Assembly: GCF_007752535.1 (NCBI RefSeq)
Contig: NZ_CP036426.1
Span: forward strand, 2,914,001 to 2,978,000
Source of the DNA: Tautonia plasticadhaerens
GTDB taxonomy: Bacteria > Planctomycetota > Planctomycetia > Isosphaerales > Isosphaeraceae
Length of the DNA stretch: 64,000 nucleotides
Reading direction: 5' to 3'
Shown piece after piece: positions 1 to 7,341 of this stretch; positions within the stretch are counted from its first letter, which is position 1; the number at the start of each line of letters is the position of its first letter. The notes under the pieces are model-generated. The model was given only the letters and a program-made list of their open reading frames with translations, was not told the origin of the DNA and made no database searches. The translations under genes and the position numbers were made by a program.

Positions 1-40
1 AGGACGCAGAGCCCCAGCCAGGGCAGGTGCAACTCGGGCA

Positions 41-1429
41 TCACGGCTCCTCGCCGATCGGAGCGGAGGGGGAGACCGAATCCGACTCGCGGGACGCGGT
101 TCCGGCCAGCAGGTCGGTCCAGCGGCGTTCCATCCGGTCGCACCAGCCGAAGGCGAGCACGAAGGGCCGGACGACGAACCGGTCCAGCGCCGCGTCGAAC
201 TGGCCCCGGTCGAAGCCCACGCGATAGAGGCCCCGGCGGACCCGTTCGGGGAACCGATGCGCCGCGGGGCCGTGCTCGACGCGGAGGTGCCCGCCGACGG
301 CGTCCTCGAGCAGGTGATAGTCGTGGAGCAGCGAGGGCGCCCGGAGCAGCTGGAGCGTCCGCAGGCAGGCGTGGCCGATGATGTGGACCAGCGGGATGTA
401 CCGCAGGCCCAGGCCGATCTCGGCCGTGATGATGCCGACCTGCGTCAGGGAGGCATAGGCCAGGGCCCCCTTGGCGTCGGCCTGGACGCGGCCGGCGACC
501 GCCGCGAACAAGGCCGTGCCCAGGCCGATCGCCACCACCGCGGCGCACAGCCAGGCCGAGCGATCGAGGATCGGGCTGACGCGGAGCAGCAGGAAGGCGC
601 CCAGGTGCACCGAGAGCGCCCCGTAGAAGACCGCGCTCGACGGCGTGGGCCCCTCCATCGCCCTCGGCAACCATCCCGAGAACGGGATGAGGGCCGACTT
701 ACCGGCGGCCGCGACCAGCAGCAGCGTCCCCACGCCCAGGGCCTGGCCGGGGGTGAGGGCCGCCTCCCCCCCCGGCCACGGCCCCGCCCCCATCAGCCCC
801 TCGAAGTCGCCCTCCCCCGAGACGTGGTGCAGGGCGACGGCCGCGAGCAGGAAGGCGGCGTCGGAGATCCGGTACACCGACCACACCCGCTGGGCGTTGA
901 GCACCGGCGCCGCCCGCTCGTGGAAGAACGCCACGAGCAGGGCCGAGGAGAGCCCGACCAGCTCCCAGCCGAGGAACAGCGTCTCGATCGTCCCGGCCAG
1001 CGAGGCGACGACCATCCCGAGCAGGAAGACGGCGAAGCAGCGGAAGAACCGGCCGTACCCGGGCTCGCGGTGCAGGTAGCGGTCGGCGAAGGCCCCAATC
1101 GTCCCCACGAGGACGAACGTGAGTAGGGCGAAGGGGACCGAGAGCCGGTCGAAGACGAACTTCAGGTGGAAGTGGAAGCGTTCCTGCGGGATCGCCACCC
1201 AGTCTCCCAGCTCGATGGGCACGAACCGGGAGCCCGAGGCGAGCATCAGGGCGAGCACCCCCAGGGCCGAGCCGAGCCCGAAGACGACGCACGAGCCGGT
1301 CCAGCGGGCCGTCGCGCCCTCGCCCAGCGGCCGGCCCAGCAGGGGGGCGGTCCCCAGGACCGCCAGCAGCAACGCCGGGGACGCGATGACGCAGGTGCCG
1401 AGGACGGCGTAGATCGCCTCGATAGTCAT
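41..1429 (-). CDS. dabB: DabB, NuoL-like proton-conducting subunit of a DIC uptake complex
   Basis: This 462-residue, highly hydrophobic protein belongs to the NuoL/MrpA proton-channel family. It shows the core of the family: '[16 protein letters not shown]' near residue 130, a conserved Lys in '[26 protein letters not shown]', and His residues in the later helices ('[17 protein letters not shown]'). It is shorter than respiratory NuoL (about 600 aa), as expected for DabB. The ATG overlaps the stop of dabA by 4 bp, so the two are surely co-transcribed and translationally coupled. In known DAB complexes DabB conducts cations across the inner membrane and energises DabA. A respiratory subunit is the alternative, but no other nuo gene is adjacent. 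Confidence 0.9.
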
Positions 1430-4400
1430 CGGGCGGCCCCCTCGGGGATCGGGTCGTGATCCCCCGCCTCGGGGGAGATGGTGGCGAACCCCAGGTGGCC
1501 CCGTCGGCCCCGGGACCACGCCGCGGAGGACGGGGCGACGGGCAGGTCGGCGTCCCCCGGCCGGTACGGCTCGAAGCCGCCGTCCCGGAAGACGTGGACG
1601 GCCGGGGAGGCGGGGTCGAGCGTCGCCAGCTGCACCCAGCCGTTGCGCACCAGGCGGCCGATCGGCCCCTCCCCGCCCAGGATGGCCATGAGGATCTCCG
1701 GCGTGGTCTCGACGACGAACAGGATCCGCATCGGCTCGTGGATCTCGACCATCTGCCAGGGGAGCCCGGGCCGCAGGTCGCTGGCCGCCCCGTCCATCAC
1801 GCCCAGGAGCGAGGTGATGTTGTGGGGCAGCTTGGTCCCGCAGCCATACCCCGAGGGATCGACGGACGAGAAGAAGTATTCGAGGTTGATCCCGGCGCAG
1901 ACCGGGATGACGGCCCCCAGCAGCGCCGCCAGGGTCGACCCCTCGGCGTCGTCCCGGGTCGGGTCGTACGAGGCGAGGAACGCCCGACGGTCGAGGAACA
2001 GGCCGCGCGTCCGCGACCGCCGGCCGACGACGCAGGCCGCGTTGGTGGCGTGGCCGTATTCCGGGCGCGTCTGGGAGAGGTCCTCCGCCCGGGCCTCGAC
2101 GTGGCGCAGGGCCTCGTCGGCCGTCGGCAGGGGACCGGCCGACTCGAAGCGCCGGCAGCGTTCCTGCGCGTTCCGCCGTCGCGCCTCCCCCGAGGCCGCC
2201 CTCGCCCGCTCGGAGAGCCCCCGGTGGGATGCCGGCAGTCGGTCGAGGTCGAAGTACGTCAGCCCGTCGTCGCAGGTGTTGTGGTAGGCGCCGACGAAGT
2301 GGACCTCGTCGGGGATCGGGAGCCCGTCCTCGGCCAGGAGGCGACGCACCCGGGGGTCGTTGGCCATCTGGGAGAAGGCCCGGGCGTTGGGCCCGCCGCG
2401 GGCCCCCCCGCAGGCCCCGCAGTCGTGGGCGGCCTCCTGGGGGTTGTTGAGGCTCGACGAGCCGTGCCCCATGACGACGACCAGGCGGGCATATTCCCCG
2501 GTGAGCCCGATGGTACGCAGGAGGCCCCCCACGACGCCCGCCATCTCGGCGACCGAGTAGCCGAGCCCGCCGTCGACGGGACCCGGCTCCGGATCGGAAC
2601 GTTCGAGCCGGAGCTGGGTCACCGGCGGGGTGACGACCCGCCCGAGGAGGCGCCGGATCCGGGCGGTCCGGCGGGGCAACAGGACTCGCATGAGCAGCGG
2701 GACGCCGGCCACCGCCCCCAGCAGGCCGGTCAGCAGGCCGCCGACGAAGGTGCGCGTGCCCAGGTGCAGCATATGCGAGAGCCGGCCGAGCCGGCGGCGG
2801 GCCTCCGCCTGGATCCGGCCGGCCCCCTCGAAGGAATGCGTCGGCTCCTCCTGCACGTAGTGTCGCGGCGTGACGCTGATCGGGCAGAGCGGGCGGAAGT
2901 GGGCCTCGGTGACGCCCCGATAGTACATCGCCACCCCGAAGTACCCCGCGACGCCGAAGGTCTCGCAGCCCGGCTCCACCTCCTCCAGGTGGCGGCGGAA
3001 GGACTCCTCGCGCTCGTCGAGGCAGCAGACGACCTGGAAGATCGCGCGGCCCTCGGGCACGGCCGCCGCCCCCGCGTGGGCCGTCAGCGCGTCGAGGACC
3101 CGATCGCGGTAGTGCCGCTCGTAGGCGAGGTGGTAGATCCGCCGCCGATCGAGGTCGCCGAAGGACTCGATCTCCTCGACGAGCCGCCCCCACTCGACCT
3201 TCGAGAGCCGATGCAGGTCGGCGGGGCCCCACCCCCGGACCTGGGCGAGCTGGAACACGAGGTAGGCCCGCTGATCGACGCTGACGCGCGACGGGCGCGG
3301 GATCCGGTGGCGGAGGGCGGCCCGAAGGTCTCGGAGGTCGGTCGCGCCCGGGAGCGCCTCGCGGGCGACGTGGCGCAGGGCGACCCGTTCGAGCAGCAGG
3401 CGGACGGCCAGGTACTCCCGGAGCGTCCCGGGCGGGGCCGGGTGGGCGGCCCATTCCGCGTTCGTCTCCATCTGCCGGAGCATCCCGGCCCAGCCGCGCA
3501 ACGCCAGCAGCGTCTCCGCGAGGTACCCCGCACGTTCGGGCTCGGCGACGCCCAGCAGTCGGAGCGACTCGTCGATTGATTCGATCGGGGACAGCCCCGC
3601 CCGCTCGACCCTCCGCAGCTCGTCCGGCAGCCCGCGGAGCCAGGGGTCGACGGGCCTCGCGTCCCGGTACAGGCCCGCGAAGGCGCGGAAGAACCCGGCC
3701 TCCCGGCCGGGGAGCGGCCAGGTGGCGAACCCCTGGTCCAGGAAGGCGGCGCAGAAGCGGATGAGCACCTCGTGGACCATCAGGTCGGTGTCCCGGCCGG
3801 TCGCCAGCACGACCAGGTCGCGATGGCGGGCGGGGGGCGGGACGGCGTCGCCGGGCCTCCTCACGCCGTGGACGCCGGCGTGGCAGATCCGCCAGAGCAG
3901 GTGCAGGGTGAACGACTCCCAGATCCGCGCGGGCCACCGCTCGACCGTCGACGCGCCGAAGCGGTCGAGCAGCGCGGCGACGACGGCGGCCCCGCGGCCC
4001 GCGCCGCCATCGCCGTCGCCGGTGGCATCCCCGAGGACCCACCGACGGGTCCGGTCGACGACCCGCCGCCTCGACTCGGGCGTGGCCTCGTCCCGGAACC
4101 GCACCAGCGCGTCGGTCTCGGCGACCAGCCACCGCAGCTCCGCGTCGGTGCCGAGGCGGAGCGGGTGCTCGAGCATGGCCAGGCGCAGGTGATACCTCGT
4201 CCCCATGAACCCGATCAGGACGTCGGCATCCTCGCCGAGGTCGTCGACCAGGGCCTCGGCGAGGTCGCCCGGGGTGATCCTCCCCCGGGCGACCTCGCCT
4301 CGGTAGGAGCCCTCGGGCAGGTAGGGATGGCAGCCGTAAGTGGCCGCCCCTCGCCTCACAGCCTCGTCGAACGGCAGATCCTCGAAGGCGTGCAGCGTGT

Positions 4401-4542
4401 TGTGGTGCACGAAGACCGTGATCGGGCCCTGCGACGGCAGCAGGTGCGCCGCGTGCTCGATCTGATGCGCCAGGTCGTGGGCCGGCCCGTGCCCGCCGAG
4501 GCCTGCCAGGTGTCTCGACTCGGGGGTCGATGCGTCGTGCAC
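1426..4542 (-). CDS. dabA: DabA, DUF2309 zinc protein, inorganic-carbon uptake
   Basis: The 1038-residue protein matches the DUF2309/UPF0753 family (DabA). The beta-carbonic-anhydrase-like zinc site is visible as 'VVCCLDERE' (about residues 506-511) and 'GHGSSSLNN...CGACGG' (about 690-710), giving the Cys, Asp, His and Cys ligand set of the family. The N-terminal '[16 protein letters not shown]' block is also typical. DabA with DabB takes up CO2 and traps it as bicarbonate at the cytoplasmic membrane. Next to it are dabB (4-bp overlap downstream) and an HTH-EIIA regulator 85 bp upstream on the same strand. The role in a planctomycete (anaplerosis, pH or low CO2) is not shown by the sequence. 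Confidence 0.92.
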
Positions 4543-4627
4543 GTCGGGATGGTCCGGTTCTCGGGGACGTCGCCCGGCTCGCCCGGCGTCGCGGGGCGGC
4601 GGGCCGGGGTGGCGGATCGACCGGCCC

Positions 4628-5347
4628 TCATCGCCCTTCGGATGCCGGGTCGGGGCCCAGGGCCGGCTCGGCGCCGCCCAGCTCCTCCTCGGCCCGCCGC
4701 ACGTGGGCGAGGATCCCTTGCCGCGAATCCTGGTCGCGCAGGGCGTGACGGACCTCGGGATCGCGCAGGACGAACGACAGCTTGGACATCAGGTGCAGGT
4801 GGGCCCGCGTCGTCGGGCTGATGATCGTGAACAGGGTATGCACCGGCTCGCCGTCCAGGCCGCCGTACGCGATCGGCCGGTCCAGGAAGCACAGGGCGAG
4901 GGTCGGCCGGTCGATGTGCAGCACGACGGGGTTGCGCACGTGCGGGATGGCGATGCCGTCGCCGATGGCCGTCGACGCCATCGCCTCTCGGGCCAGCAGG
5001 ACCCGCAGCAGGAACTCGCGGTCGACCTCCCCGGGGAGCCTCAGGAGCTGGACCACCTCGCGCAACGCCGACTCCTTGTCGGAGCCGGAGACGCGGTAAT
5101 GCACCCCGCCGGACTCCAGCGCCTCGACCAGCGACGGGACCGGCTGCCCGGCCGCCTCCGGCTCGGCGAAGATCTCGCTCGAGACGTTCAGCCGCCGGGA
5201 GGTGGCCCACTCGAGGATCTCGGCCCGGTTGAAGCGATACTGGTCCTGCACCCGGTAGGCGGGGATCGACTGCTGCTTGATCCAGCGGTAGATCGTCTTC
5301 TCGGAGACGCTCAGGATGCGGGCGGCGTCGCGTACGGAGAGGTTCAC
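4628..5347 (-). CDS. HTH (excisionase/MerR-like) fused to PTS EIIA(Ntr) domain
   Basis: A 239-residue fusion. Residues 1-55 form a helix-turn-helix of the excisionase/MerR type ('SVRDAARILSVSEKTIYRWIKQ' region, then 'RFNRAEILEWA'). Residues about 75-225 form an EIIA domain of the fructose/nitrogen PTS family with the phosphorylatable His at 136 ('GDGIAIPHVRNP'). I chose the GTG at 5347, which has AAGGA seven bases upstream. An in-frame ATG at 5392 adds 15 unlikely residues. It lies upstream of dabA on the same strand with an 85-bp gap, so it may control or be co-transcribed with dabAB. The family suggests phospho-signal-dependent regulation; the target is inference. Confidence 0.85.
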   Translation of the reverse strand: MNLSVRDAARILSVSEKTIYRWIKQQSIPAYRVQDQYRFNRAEILEWATSRRLNVSSEIFAEPEAAGQPVPSLVEALESGGVHYRVSGSDKESALREVVQLLRLPGEVDREFLLRVLLAREAMASTAIGDGIAIPHVRNPVVLHIDRPTLALCFLDRPIAYGGLDGEPVHTLFTIISPTTRAHLHLMSKLSFVLRDPEVRHALRDQDSRQGILAHVRRAEEELGGAEPALGPDPASEGR

Positions 5348-5422
5348 GGTCGCGTCCTTCGCGCCCCGGGTCCCGCCCGTGCAGGGCCCCACCGGAATGA
5401 GGCGACCGGCCCGGCGTCCCGC

Positions 5423-5608
5423 TCAGCCGGCGGTGATCGCCCCCGGGGACGCCGTCGTGCCGGCCGCCTCCCGACTCCCCTCGGCGTCCCGGAGGATGGC
5501 GACGATCAGCGCATTGAGCGAGGTCTTCTCCTCCCGGGCGCGGCTCGCCAGATACTCATGGAGGGGTGGGGGCATCCGGATCTGGAAGTGGACGACGGTC
5601 TCGGGCAT
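5423..5608 (-). CDS. Ribbon-helix-helix (Arc-type) DNA-binding protein
   Basis: A 61-residue protein whose first 45 residues fit a ribbon-helix-helix fold: a short strand 'VVHFQIRMP', then helix 'PLHEYLASRAREEKTS' and helix 'LNALIVAILRDAEGS'. The tail is disordered (Ala/Gly/Thr). Such proteins are dimeric repressors or antitoxins. No toxin gene is adjacent. A TTGACA-N18-GACAAT promoter about 80 bp upstream on its own strand has a GGACATTGTCC palindrome over the -10, so autoregulation is likely. It reads toward the HTH-EIIA and dabAB genes and could be their first gene, though the 75-bp gap to the HTH-EIIA start leaves this open. Confidence 0.7.
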   Translation of the reverse strand: MPETVVHFQIRMPPPLHEYLASRAREEKTSLNALIVAILRDAEGSREAAGTTASPGAITAG

Positions 5609-5682
5609 CTCAGACCTCGGGCGGGGCCGCGCCTGGCCAGGAATGGGAATCGATGGACATTCAGGACTCCCAGTGACATCTC

Positions 5683-5716
5683 AGGACATTGTCCCCCAGG
5701 TGACGCCTGTTGTCAA
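5683..5716 (-). promoter_or_regulatory. Putative sigma70-type promoter with overlapping palindromic operator
   Basis: On the minus strand TTGACA (5716-5711) is followed after 18 bases by GACAAT (5692-5687). The palindrome GGACATTGTCC (5683-5693) overlaps the -10 element, and a further GGACATTCAGGAC half-site lies about 25 bp downstream. It would drive the ribbon-helix-helix gene starting at 5608 and perhaps the genes after it. Repressors of that fold typically bind short repeats placed this way. This is a prediction by eye. Confidence 0.5.
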
Positions 5717-5970
5717 TGACGAAGGAGTTTTGCCGAGGCAGGGCCGAGACGCCGCACCCGAGCCTCGACGCCCGCCCCGGGCACACCCATCGCCTCGCGT
5801 GCCGCCCGCGGCGCCATCGGCCTCGGCGAGCGGGGGAGGCGACGGGCCTCGCCGCTCGAAGCCGACGCTCCTTGATTCTCGCGCGGGGGCGAGCGTTCCG
5901 CTCAAGTCGGACGGGCCGGGACCCGATACGACCGGCATAATCGTCAAACTTCGCCACAGGGGCCGGTGCA
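5717..5970. other. Non-coding stretch between divergent genes
   Basis: The gap separates the minus-strand ribbon-helix-helix gene from the plus-strand FadL-like gene. Apart from the promoter/operator described at 5683-5716, I see no gene, hairpin or repeat here. The last 30 bases before 5971 are AT-richer than average and may hold the start signals for the FadL-like gene, but no clear -10/-35 pair is visible. Confidence 0.5.
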
Positions 5971-7341
5971 ATGCGAGGAACCATACGGGCCGTGCTCGGG
6001 GCCGTCTTGGTGGCGAGCTGGGCCTCGACGGCCGGCGCCCAGGGGATCATCCTGCCCGGCGCGGGGCCGATCAACCGGTCGATGGCGGGGGCCTCGACGG
6101 CCGCCCCGATCGAGCTGGGCGGCACGTACTGGAACCCGGCGCTGCTGAGTGCCTTCGAGAGCAACCAGGTGCTGCTCGGCTCCGAATTGCTGATCCCGAG
6201 CACGCACTTCACCGGCACGCTGCCCGCCGGGGCGATCAACGGGACCTTCCCGCCGAACGACCGCTACGGGGTGTCCCGGAGCGACAGCGGGGTGGCCTCG
6301 AACCTGGCCACGGGCGTCTCGTTCAAGCTGAGGGAGGACTCGCCGACGACACTGGGCCTGCTGGTGGCCGGGTTCGTGGGCGGGAACGTGAACTACGCGG
6401 GCAGCTTCAGCACGCCGCTCCTGACCCCCCGGGTGCCGCCGGACTTCGCCGGGGTCGGGCCGATCTACGGCAACGCCTCGATGCTGGCGATCACGCCGAT
6501 GATCTCGACGCGGATCGGCGACCGCTTGCACGTCGGCGGCGGGCCGATCATCAGCACCCTGTCGCTCGCGATGGACCCGGCCTTCTTCGCGCCCGGCCCC
6601 CGGGACGAGTTCGGCCTGGTGACCTTCCCCTCGGCCACGCACTCCCGGCCGTTCTGGGGGGGCGGGTTCCAGTTCGGGCTGCTGTACGAGGTGAACGACT
6701 CCTGGAACGTCGGCTTCTCGTACAAGAGCCCGATCTGGCAGGAGCGCTGGAGCTTCAACTCCTCCACCCCGGACCTCGTGGGGCGGAGGATCGGCGTGGA
6801 CGCCGACATCCCCCAGATCTTCTCCTGGGGCGTGGCGTACAAGGGGATCGACCGGCTGCTGGTCGACGTCGACCTCCGCTATTTCGACTACCAGAACGCC
6901 GCCCTGTTCGGCCAGCGGGTCGTCGACGGCGGCCTCGGCTGGGACAGCATCTTCGCGGTGGCCTCCGGGGCCTCCTACCAGCTCTCCGACCGGCTGACCC
7001 TCCGCGGCGGCTATTCCTACAATGAGAACCCGATCCGGGACAACACCACGCTCTTCAACGTGCAGCTGCCCGGCATCCTCCAGCACAACCTGTCGCTCGG
7101 TGCCTCGCTGAAGGTGACCGAGAACGTCACGTTCACGGCCGGCTGGGTCCACTCCTTCCGGAACTCCTCGGAGGGCCAGGTGACCCAGGTCCCGGGCGCG
7201 ACGGCGAAGTTCGACACCCAGCTCGACTCGATCCTGGCCGGCATCAACATCGAGTGGGGCACCCGATGCCCGGAGTGCCACCGGCACCACGTCGACCACG
7301 GCCACGGCTCCGGGGCCGGGGCCGAACCGGCCTCCAACTGA
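5971..7341 (+). CDS. FadL/OMPP1-like outer-membrane beta-barrel protein
   Basis: A 456-residue secreted protein with a signal peptide cleaved after 'ASTAGA-QG'. The mature N-terminus carries the FadL-like pattern 'GAGPINRSMAGASTAAPIELGGTYWNPALLSAFESNQV', and the rest alternates as amphipathic beta strands ('VGFSYKSPIWQERWSFN', 'LDSILAGINIEWG'). FadL/TodX proteins are monomeric channels for hydrophobic compounds in the outer membrane. A His-rich tail (CPECHRHHVDHGHG) follows the last strand and could bind metal; this is unusual for the family. The next gene encodes a secreted esterase in the same direction 150 bp downstream. The substrate is unknown. Confidence 0.75.
   Translation: MRGTIRAVLGAVLVASWASTAGAQGIILPGAGPINRSMAGASTAAPIELGGTYWNPALLSAFESNQVLLGSELLIPSTHFTGTLPAGAINGTFPPNDRYGVSRSDSGVASNLATGVSFKLREDSPTTLGLLVAGFVGGNVNYAGSFSTPLLTPRVPPDFAGVGPIYGNASMLAITPMISTRIGDRLHVGGGPIISTLSLAMDPAFFAPGPRDEFGLVTFPSATHSRPFWGGGFQFGLLYEVNDSWNVGFSYKSPIWQERWSFNSSTPDLVGRRIGVDADIPQIFSWGVAYKGIDRLLVDVDLRYFDYQNAALFGQRVVDGGLGWDSIFAVASGASYQLSDRLTLRGGYSYNENPIRDNTTLFNVQLPGILQHNLSLGASLKVTENVTFTAGWVHSFRNSSEGQVTQVPGATAKFDTQLDSILAGINIEWGTRCPECHRHHVDHGHGSGAGAEPASN

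Follow-up and report, generated by a model that had tools for sequence, protein, structure and literature searches.

How do the genes of a predicted inorganic-carbon pump come to stand behind a regulator that contains a domain of the phosphotransferase system (PTS), and does that regulator control them? The question is raised by one end of a 64,000-nucleotide stretch of Tautonia plasticadhaerens DNA (contig NZ_CP036426.1, positions 2,914,001 to 2,978,000 of the forward strand), here called the window, where a gene fusing a helix-turn-helix (HTH) to an EIIA domain, the HTH-EIIA gene, precedes dabA and dabB. An earlier note on this DNA had proposed a dedicated phospho-switch of CO2 uptake in a non-autotroph. 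The best explanation as a whole, which gene order and sequence conservation make probable, is an autoregulated ribbon-helix-helix (RHH)-HTH-EIIA-dabABC operon that would be tuned through EIIA. The protein itself is better read as regulating NuoL-type ion-coupled complexes in general, of which DabABC would be one cargo.

Organization of the dabABC unit

On the minus strand, the unit runs from the promoter and operator (5672-5716) through RHH, HTH-EIIA, dabA and dabB to a third gene outside the window (Table 1). It is larger than the earlier note saw, with the RHH gene upstream and the third gene, dabC, past the window; the dabC reading frame crosses the window start and overlaps the dabB stop. 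What had been described between these two genes was borne out: dabA and dabB have 4 bp in common (1426-1429), HTH-EIIA and dabA are separated by 85 bp if the GTG at 4542 is the dabA start codon, and HTH_17 and PTS_EIIA_2 domains are found on one protein, which the TIGR01764 excisionase domain model also matches. Translation of this protein probably begins at the GTG at 5347, since most of 17 aligned relatives have the same start.

A scan of positions 1-6100 gave one promoter-like site (shuffle mean 0.1) and no terminator-like site, and no promoter-like site was found in the gap between HTH-EIIA and dabA. The single promoter, the lack of a terminator-like site, the tight packing and an operator placed before RHH-HTH-EIIA-dabAB make control of dabABC by the regulator likely. 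The sequence thus gives good support to a predicted operon that regulates itself.

A conserved operator ahead of the regulator

Alignment of nine A-type loci upstream of the RHH gene revealed a common TTGACA, about 21 bases and TGTCC-N4-ATGTC, and a position weight matrix (PWM) was built from them. A tenth A-type locus (L040), outside the matrix set, has the operator too, and in 10 of 10 close relatives it lies ahead of the regulator, with the RHH gene where that was found. An RHH homologue precedes the A-type gene at eight of the nine other loci of the order that have this gene (L034, L035, L038 and L041-L045), and was not detected at L040.

The matrix was then applied to held-out loci. Of the 42 with at least 53% identity, 29 have their highest-scoring site, over the whole locus, in the 160 bases before HTH-EIIA (0.6 expected), compared with 0-4 for column-permuted matrices and 1 for the reversed matrix on the same loci. 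The signal was found at 5 of 41 loci at 43-53% identity and at 1 of 19 below 43%. A core-pattern search of seven genomes returned a sole site above 20 bits, the promoter before the regulator, in each of six A-type genomes, and none above 20 bits in G041, which is without an A-type gene. Because no strong intergenic site other than this operator was found in the genome, the most likely target of the regulator is its own operon, including dabABC. A regulon beyond its own promoter was considered and rejected: in this genome-wide scan, which covered the core pattern only, other sites scored at most 19.3 and lay mostly inside called genes.

The operator could have a different reader. If the Arc/HicB-like RHH protein were its binder, HTH-EIIA would act elsewhere and dabABC would be a mere passenger, as the position of the RHH gene at the head of the unit and its conservation with the unit would allow. 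The motif, however, stands directly before HTH-EIIA at loci of many phyla at which no such RHH homologue was found (tblastn, 1e-4), and it fades as HTH-EIIA diverges; we consider this arrangement quite unlikely.

Table 1. Features of the unit, in window coordinates unless a locus is given.
Feature	Position	Strand	Details
Putative operator, direct repeat TGTCC-N4-ATGTC, 10-bp period	5672-5693	-	PWM 32.6 bits; overlaps -10 box
Sigma-70-like promoter, TTGACA-17-GACAAT	5688-5716	-	sole promoter-like site in 1-6100
RHH protein, HicB/Arc-like	5423-5608	-	61 aa; first gene of unit; PF05534 4.9e-6, PF03869 8.4e-6
HTH-EIIA regulator	4628-5347	-	239 aa; GTG start; Pfam matches
HTH_17/excisionase-type domain	5192-5341	-	residues 3-52; Pfam 6.1e-16
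PTS_EIIA_2 domain	4700-5104	-	residues 82-216; Pfam 9.2e-26; His136 codon 4940-4942
dabA	1426-4542	-	1038 aa; PF10070 5.8e-238, 792 bits
dabB, NuoL-like	41-1429	-	462 aa; Proton_antipo_M 1.1e-33; PF00361 and PF00662
dabC (third gene), NuoM-like, first codons	1-41	-	whole gene 515 aa, L033:16494-18041 (-); PF00361 1.3e-22

The regulator is usually found next to Ehr-type complexes

The setting of the regulator was read at 80 loci from named genomes and 40 from 392 Planctomycetota genomes; the named loci span Planctomycetota, Myxococcota, Thermodesulfobacteriota, Spirochaetota, Acidobacteriota, Gemmatimonadota, Lentisphaerota and others. Neighbours were counted for 95 relatives that are full-length and at least 43% identical, with three duplicates removed and the window excluded. 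The hydrogenase-4-like complexes next to the regulator are here taken to be of the kind named Ehr. An Ehr-type NuoL-type gene lies at most 1 kb downstream of the regulator in 77 of the 95 loci, in some past a second HTH-EIIA gene; the remainder have dabA (2), carbonic anhydrase (2) or other genes (10), or lie at a contig end (4). Among relatives below 43% identity, NuoL-type genes were found at 3 of 19. The dedicated dabAB regulator of the earlier note is not supported as stated by this count, the fusion gene being found mostly elsewhere in related genomes, one of the two outcomes that the note itself had named as refuting it. A wider notion fits better, in which the protein regulates NuoL-type complexes and, in the host genus, serves dabABC.

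In four genomes (G016, G021, G022 and G023), close relatives of the regulator (71-79% identity) precede another HTH-EIIA gene together with an Ehr-type operon; in G038 and G039 the next gene after the orphan A-type regulator encodes a beta-carbonic anhydrase, and in G028 the regulator stands alone. Large subunits of the partner complex were read at four loci and none has a CxxC nickel-ligand motif, so the partner is not a classical NiFe hydrogenase. HTH-EIIA genes directly ahead of Ehr-type operons without NiFe ligands occur across many phyla (L073-L130 and L162-L184), and the operator motif frequently accompanies them. In Geobacter-like genomes (L101, L105, L109 and L110) HTH-EIIA precedes a single NuoL-like gene and is divergent from an Ehr-type operon.

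Long-form dabA and an HTH-EIIA-linked NuoH gene occur together in none of the 45 genomes of the order, and alone in 28 and 9, respectively (Fisher 2.7e-5; 0.0055 at the genus level; both ignore kinship and incomplete genomes). If three weaker NuoH matches are included, the two genes coincide in one genome; within one genus, either state is found, in different genomes. The NuoH-like subunit had no match in the four genomes of the host genus (G000, G040, G041 and G042). The same carbonic anhydrase family adjoins dabABC, the orphan regulator and, in G043, an Ehr-type operon; a general association of carbonic anhydrase with Ehr operons was rejected, since no homologue was found in the other Ehr loci read.

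These patterns touch on a bolder reading, that HTH-EIIA proteins would be dedicated regulators of NuoL-based ion-coupled inorganic-carbon machines, and that DabABC could take over the task of Ehr-type complexes without NiFe ligands. The exclusion of dabA and NuoH, the common carbonic anhydrase neighbour and the same kind of operator with either cargo are in line with it, while the failure to find that homologue at the other Ehr loci speaks against it, and we hold it to be very doubtful. The proposed direction, from Ehr to dab, was read from frequency rather than from a rooted tree, because the HTH-EIIA tree has weak deep branches.

Distribution of the dabA pairing

A survey of the 45 genomes of the order showed a DabA match in 36 and an EIIA match in 43. 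HTH-EIIA adjoins dabA in three of the four genomes of the host genus (G000, G040 and G042), and order-wide in 3 of 28 genomes that have long-form dabA; the fourth genome of the genus (G041) has neither long-form dabA nor the regulator. Across the three species the paired DabA proteins share 62-72% identity and the gaps between HTH-EIIA and dabA measure 77-97 bp. The three dab-linked HTH-EIIA proteins form one clade (support 100/96) inside a ten-member clade (100/97).

A general pairing of DabA and HTH-EIIA in Planctomycetota was rejected: dabA was found in 59 of the 392 genomes, and among the HTH-EIIA matches listed only that of G000 adjoins one. Mobile spread was rejected as well, as there was no plasmid match and no viral contig match. 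At L072 (G010, from another genus; 2584-6578), a divergent HTH-EIIA-like protein (25% identity, His kept) follows directly on a long-branch dabA without dabB; this protein has no Pfam hit, and the locus was kept as a lead only and not counted as a second pairing. No paper on an HTH-EIIA/DabA or HTH-EIIA/Ehr pairing was found by title or abstract in a search whose coverage left out most subscription journals.

The HTH-EIIA protein and its possible phosphorylation

The AlphaFold model of HTH-EIIA has a pLDDT of 86, and a fold search gave PtsN/EIIA-Ntr chains (3urr and 1a6j) as its best PDB matches. Against the TIGR01419 PtsN equivalog model it scores 63.4 bits, well under the cut-off of 138.7: it is an EIIA-domain fusion rather than PtsN. 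Pfam showed neither a PRD nor an EIIB domain in it. His136, for which a phosphorylatable type had been claimed, lies in an IPH-R context that is invariant in 18 aligned sequences.

Matches to EIIA, HPr and EI are clustered within 2.7 kb on contig 1 of the genome, which has six HPr matches in all; judging by these matches, a PTS-Ntr-like relay is encoded. EI and HPr of this relay would phosphorylate His136, making phospho-control of HTH-EIIA plausible. The operon and its autoregulation would hold equally if EIIA were a dimerisation or docking domain, for example one held at the membrane by a NuoL-type complex, with no phospho-switch. HTH-EIIA genes do adjoin NuoL-type membrane complexes at most loci, and the fold search also returned the EIIA-like fold of band 3/AE2 cytoplasmic domains; the invariance of His136 and its context, and the encoded EI/HPr relay, are points against a docking role, which we regard as possible but unlikely.

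DabA and the carbon context

C507, D509, R511, H693 and C708 of DabA align with C351, D353, R355, H524 and C539 of DabA2 (9rd0), the only solved sequence matching DabA, which served as the alignment reference; these DabA2 residues were mutated in PMC13144422. DabABC is best described as a predicted inorganic-carbon pump with CO2 as its presumed substrate. Among NCBIfam models, dabC best matches that of NuoM. All 24 dabAB loci of the order that were read past dabB, one of them ended by a contig end, have the arrangement dabA-dabB-third gene, and the third gene in the DAB operons of these loci is NuoM-like. In G030 (L065, 8678-9379), a GntR/FCD regulator lies ahead of dabABC, in the place held by HTH-EIIA in the host genus.

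A beta-carbonic anhydrase gene with C-x-D-x-R and H-x-x-C motifs (L033, 15539-16477) is convergent with dabC; of the order's 28 genomes with long dabA, 7 have such a gene near it. In agreement with the non-autotrophic host of the earlier note, no Calvin-Benson-Bassham (CBB) RuBisCO was found, the weaker of two RuBisCO-family matches (52 bits) being left unexamined. The strong PF00016 match lies in what, from its translation, looks like a form-IV-like open reading frame (L202, 110-2751) adjoining a sugar-acid kinase-like one, a pair that perhaps serves an apionate-type breakdown.

Proposed mechanism and points against it

RHH, HTH-EIIA, dabA, dabB and dabC would form one autoregulated operon, in which HTH-EIIA would bind the TGTC direct repeats over its own -10 box, presumably as a repressor, and so set the level of DabABC. 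The pump would carry out vectorial CO2 hydration powered by an ion gradient. This operator may be one to which the RHH protein binds as well. Phosphorylation of His136 by the PTS-Ntr-like EI/HPr probably toggles DNA binding, by which pump synthesis would track the phosphoenolpyruvate (PEP) and energy state of the cell. The cassette would represent a widespread regulator type, normally ahead of an Ehr-type complex, with dabABC as its cargo in the host genus.

Several observations weigh against this model. AT-richness alone selects the stretch upstream of HTH-EIIA in 14 of the 42 held-out loci, and AT-rich upstream stretches may account for part of the motif signal; at A-type loci, RHH could be the true operator binder. 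The 85-bp gap could hide an unrecognised promoter, and no operator lies close before dabA in G028, G038 and G039, where the regulator is apart from dabABC. In the DabA tree, the host genus groups with genus g18 in a single clade that does not set the three dab-linked DabA apart, and no regulator of the HTH-EIIA type was seen beside dabA in g18; on this topology, the pairing may predate the genus and have been lost in g18. PEP carboxylase would be an obvious reason for coupling PEP and bicarbonate, but the genome gave no match to it (PF00311, which matched in 7 of 14 control genomes), and an anaplerotic link through it was dropped. The pairing, finally, is confined to one genus.

This confinement also suits an accidental neighbourhood, in which dabABC would have its own promoter in the gap and the regulator would be the remnant of a lost Ehr operon. 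The orphan A-type gene in G028 would fit such a history, as would the DabA relatives without the regulator, which have no common upstream gap or orientation. Yet the pairing is kept in three species despite the divergence of their DabA and with gaps of similar kind, G041 is without both partners, and the gap is without a promoter-like site, all of which make an accident rather improbable.

Significance

The proposed autoregulated operon offers a concrete, testable candidate switch for the uptake of inorganic carbon, made up of a 22-bp operator and a single histidine, in a bacterium whose genome yielded no CBB RuBisCO. It would also link PTS signalling to DAB pumps. The conserved regulator and operator would serve hydrogenase-like complexes of unknown function in many phyla as well, and could be used for finding the role of these complexes.

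Comparison with known systems

Ehr-type complexes are the usual neighbours of the regulator, and their NuoL-type subunits resemble DabB and DabC; here, in contrast, dabA and not an Ehr-type operon lies directly downstream of HTH-EIIA. With EIIA-Ntr (PtsN) the protein shares the EIIA fold, the IPH phospho-His and its best PDB match (3urr), but it carries a fused N-terminal HTH, and a further, separate EIIA is encoded next to HPr and EI. The PTS-domain transcription factors MtlR and LicR, as well as a Chlamydia HTH-EIIA protein, combine an HTH with an EIIA-type domain and are thought to govern the adjacent operon. HTH-EIIA differs from MtlR/LicR-type regulators in being without PRD and EIIB, and its predicted target is an ion-coupled pump rather than a sugar permease.

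DAB/DAC pumps (DabAB of Halothiobacillus and MpsAB of Staphylococcus) have, as here, a PF10070 DabA with the zinc/active-site C, D, R, H and C and an adjacent NuoL-like DabB. MpsAB shows that pumps of this kind serve non-autotrophs (PMC6689103), and mpsC is dispensable in S. aureus. The third subunit of DAB1 is a small transmembrane protein (PMC13144422), whereas the third gene here encodes a second antiporter-like (NuoM-like) protein. The further difference from these pumps is the pair of genes, RHH and HTH-EIIA, ahead of the pump genes in the T. plasticadhaerens unit.

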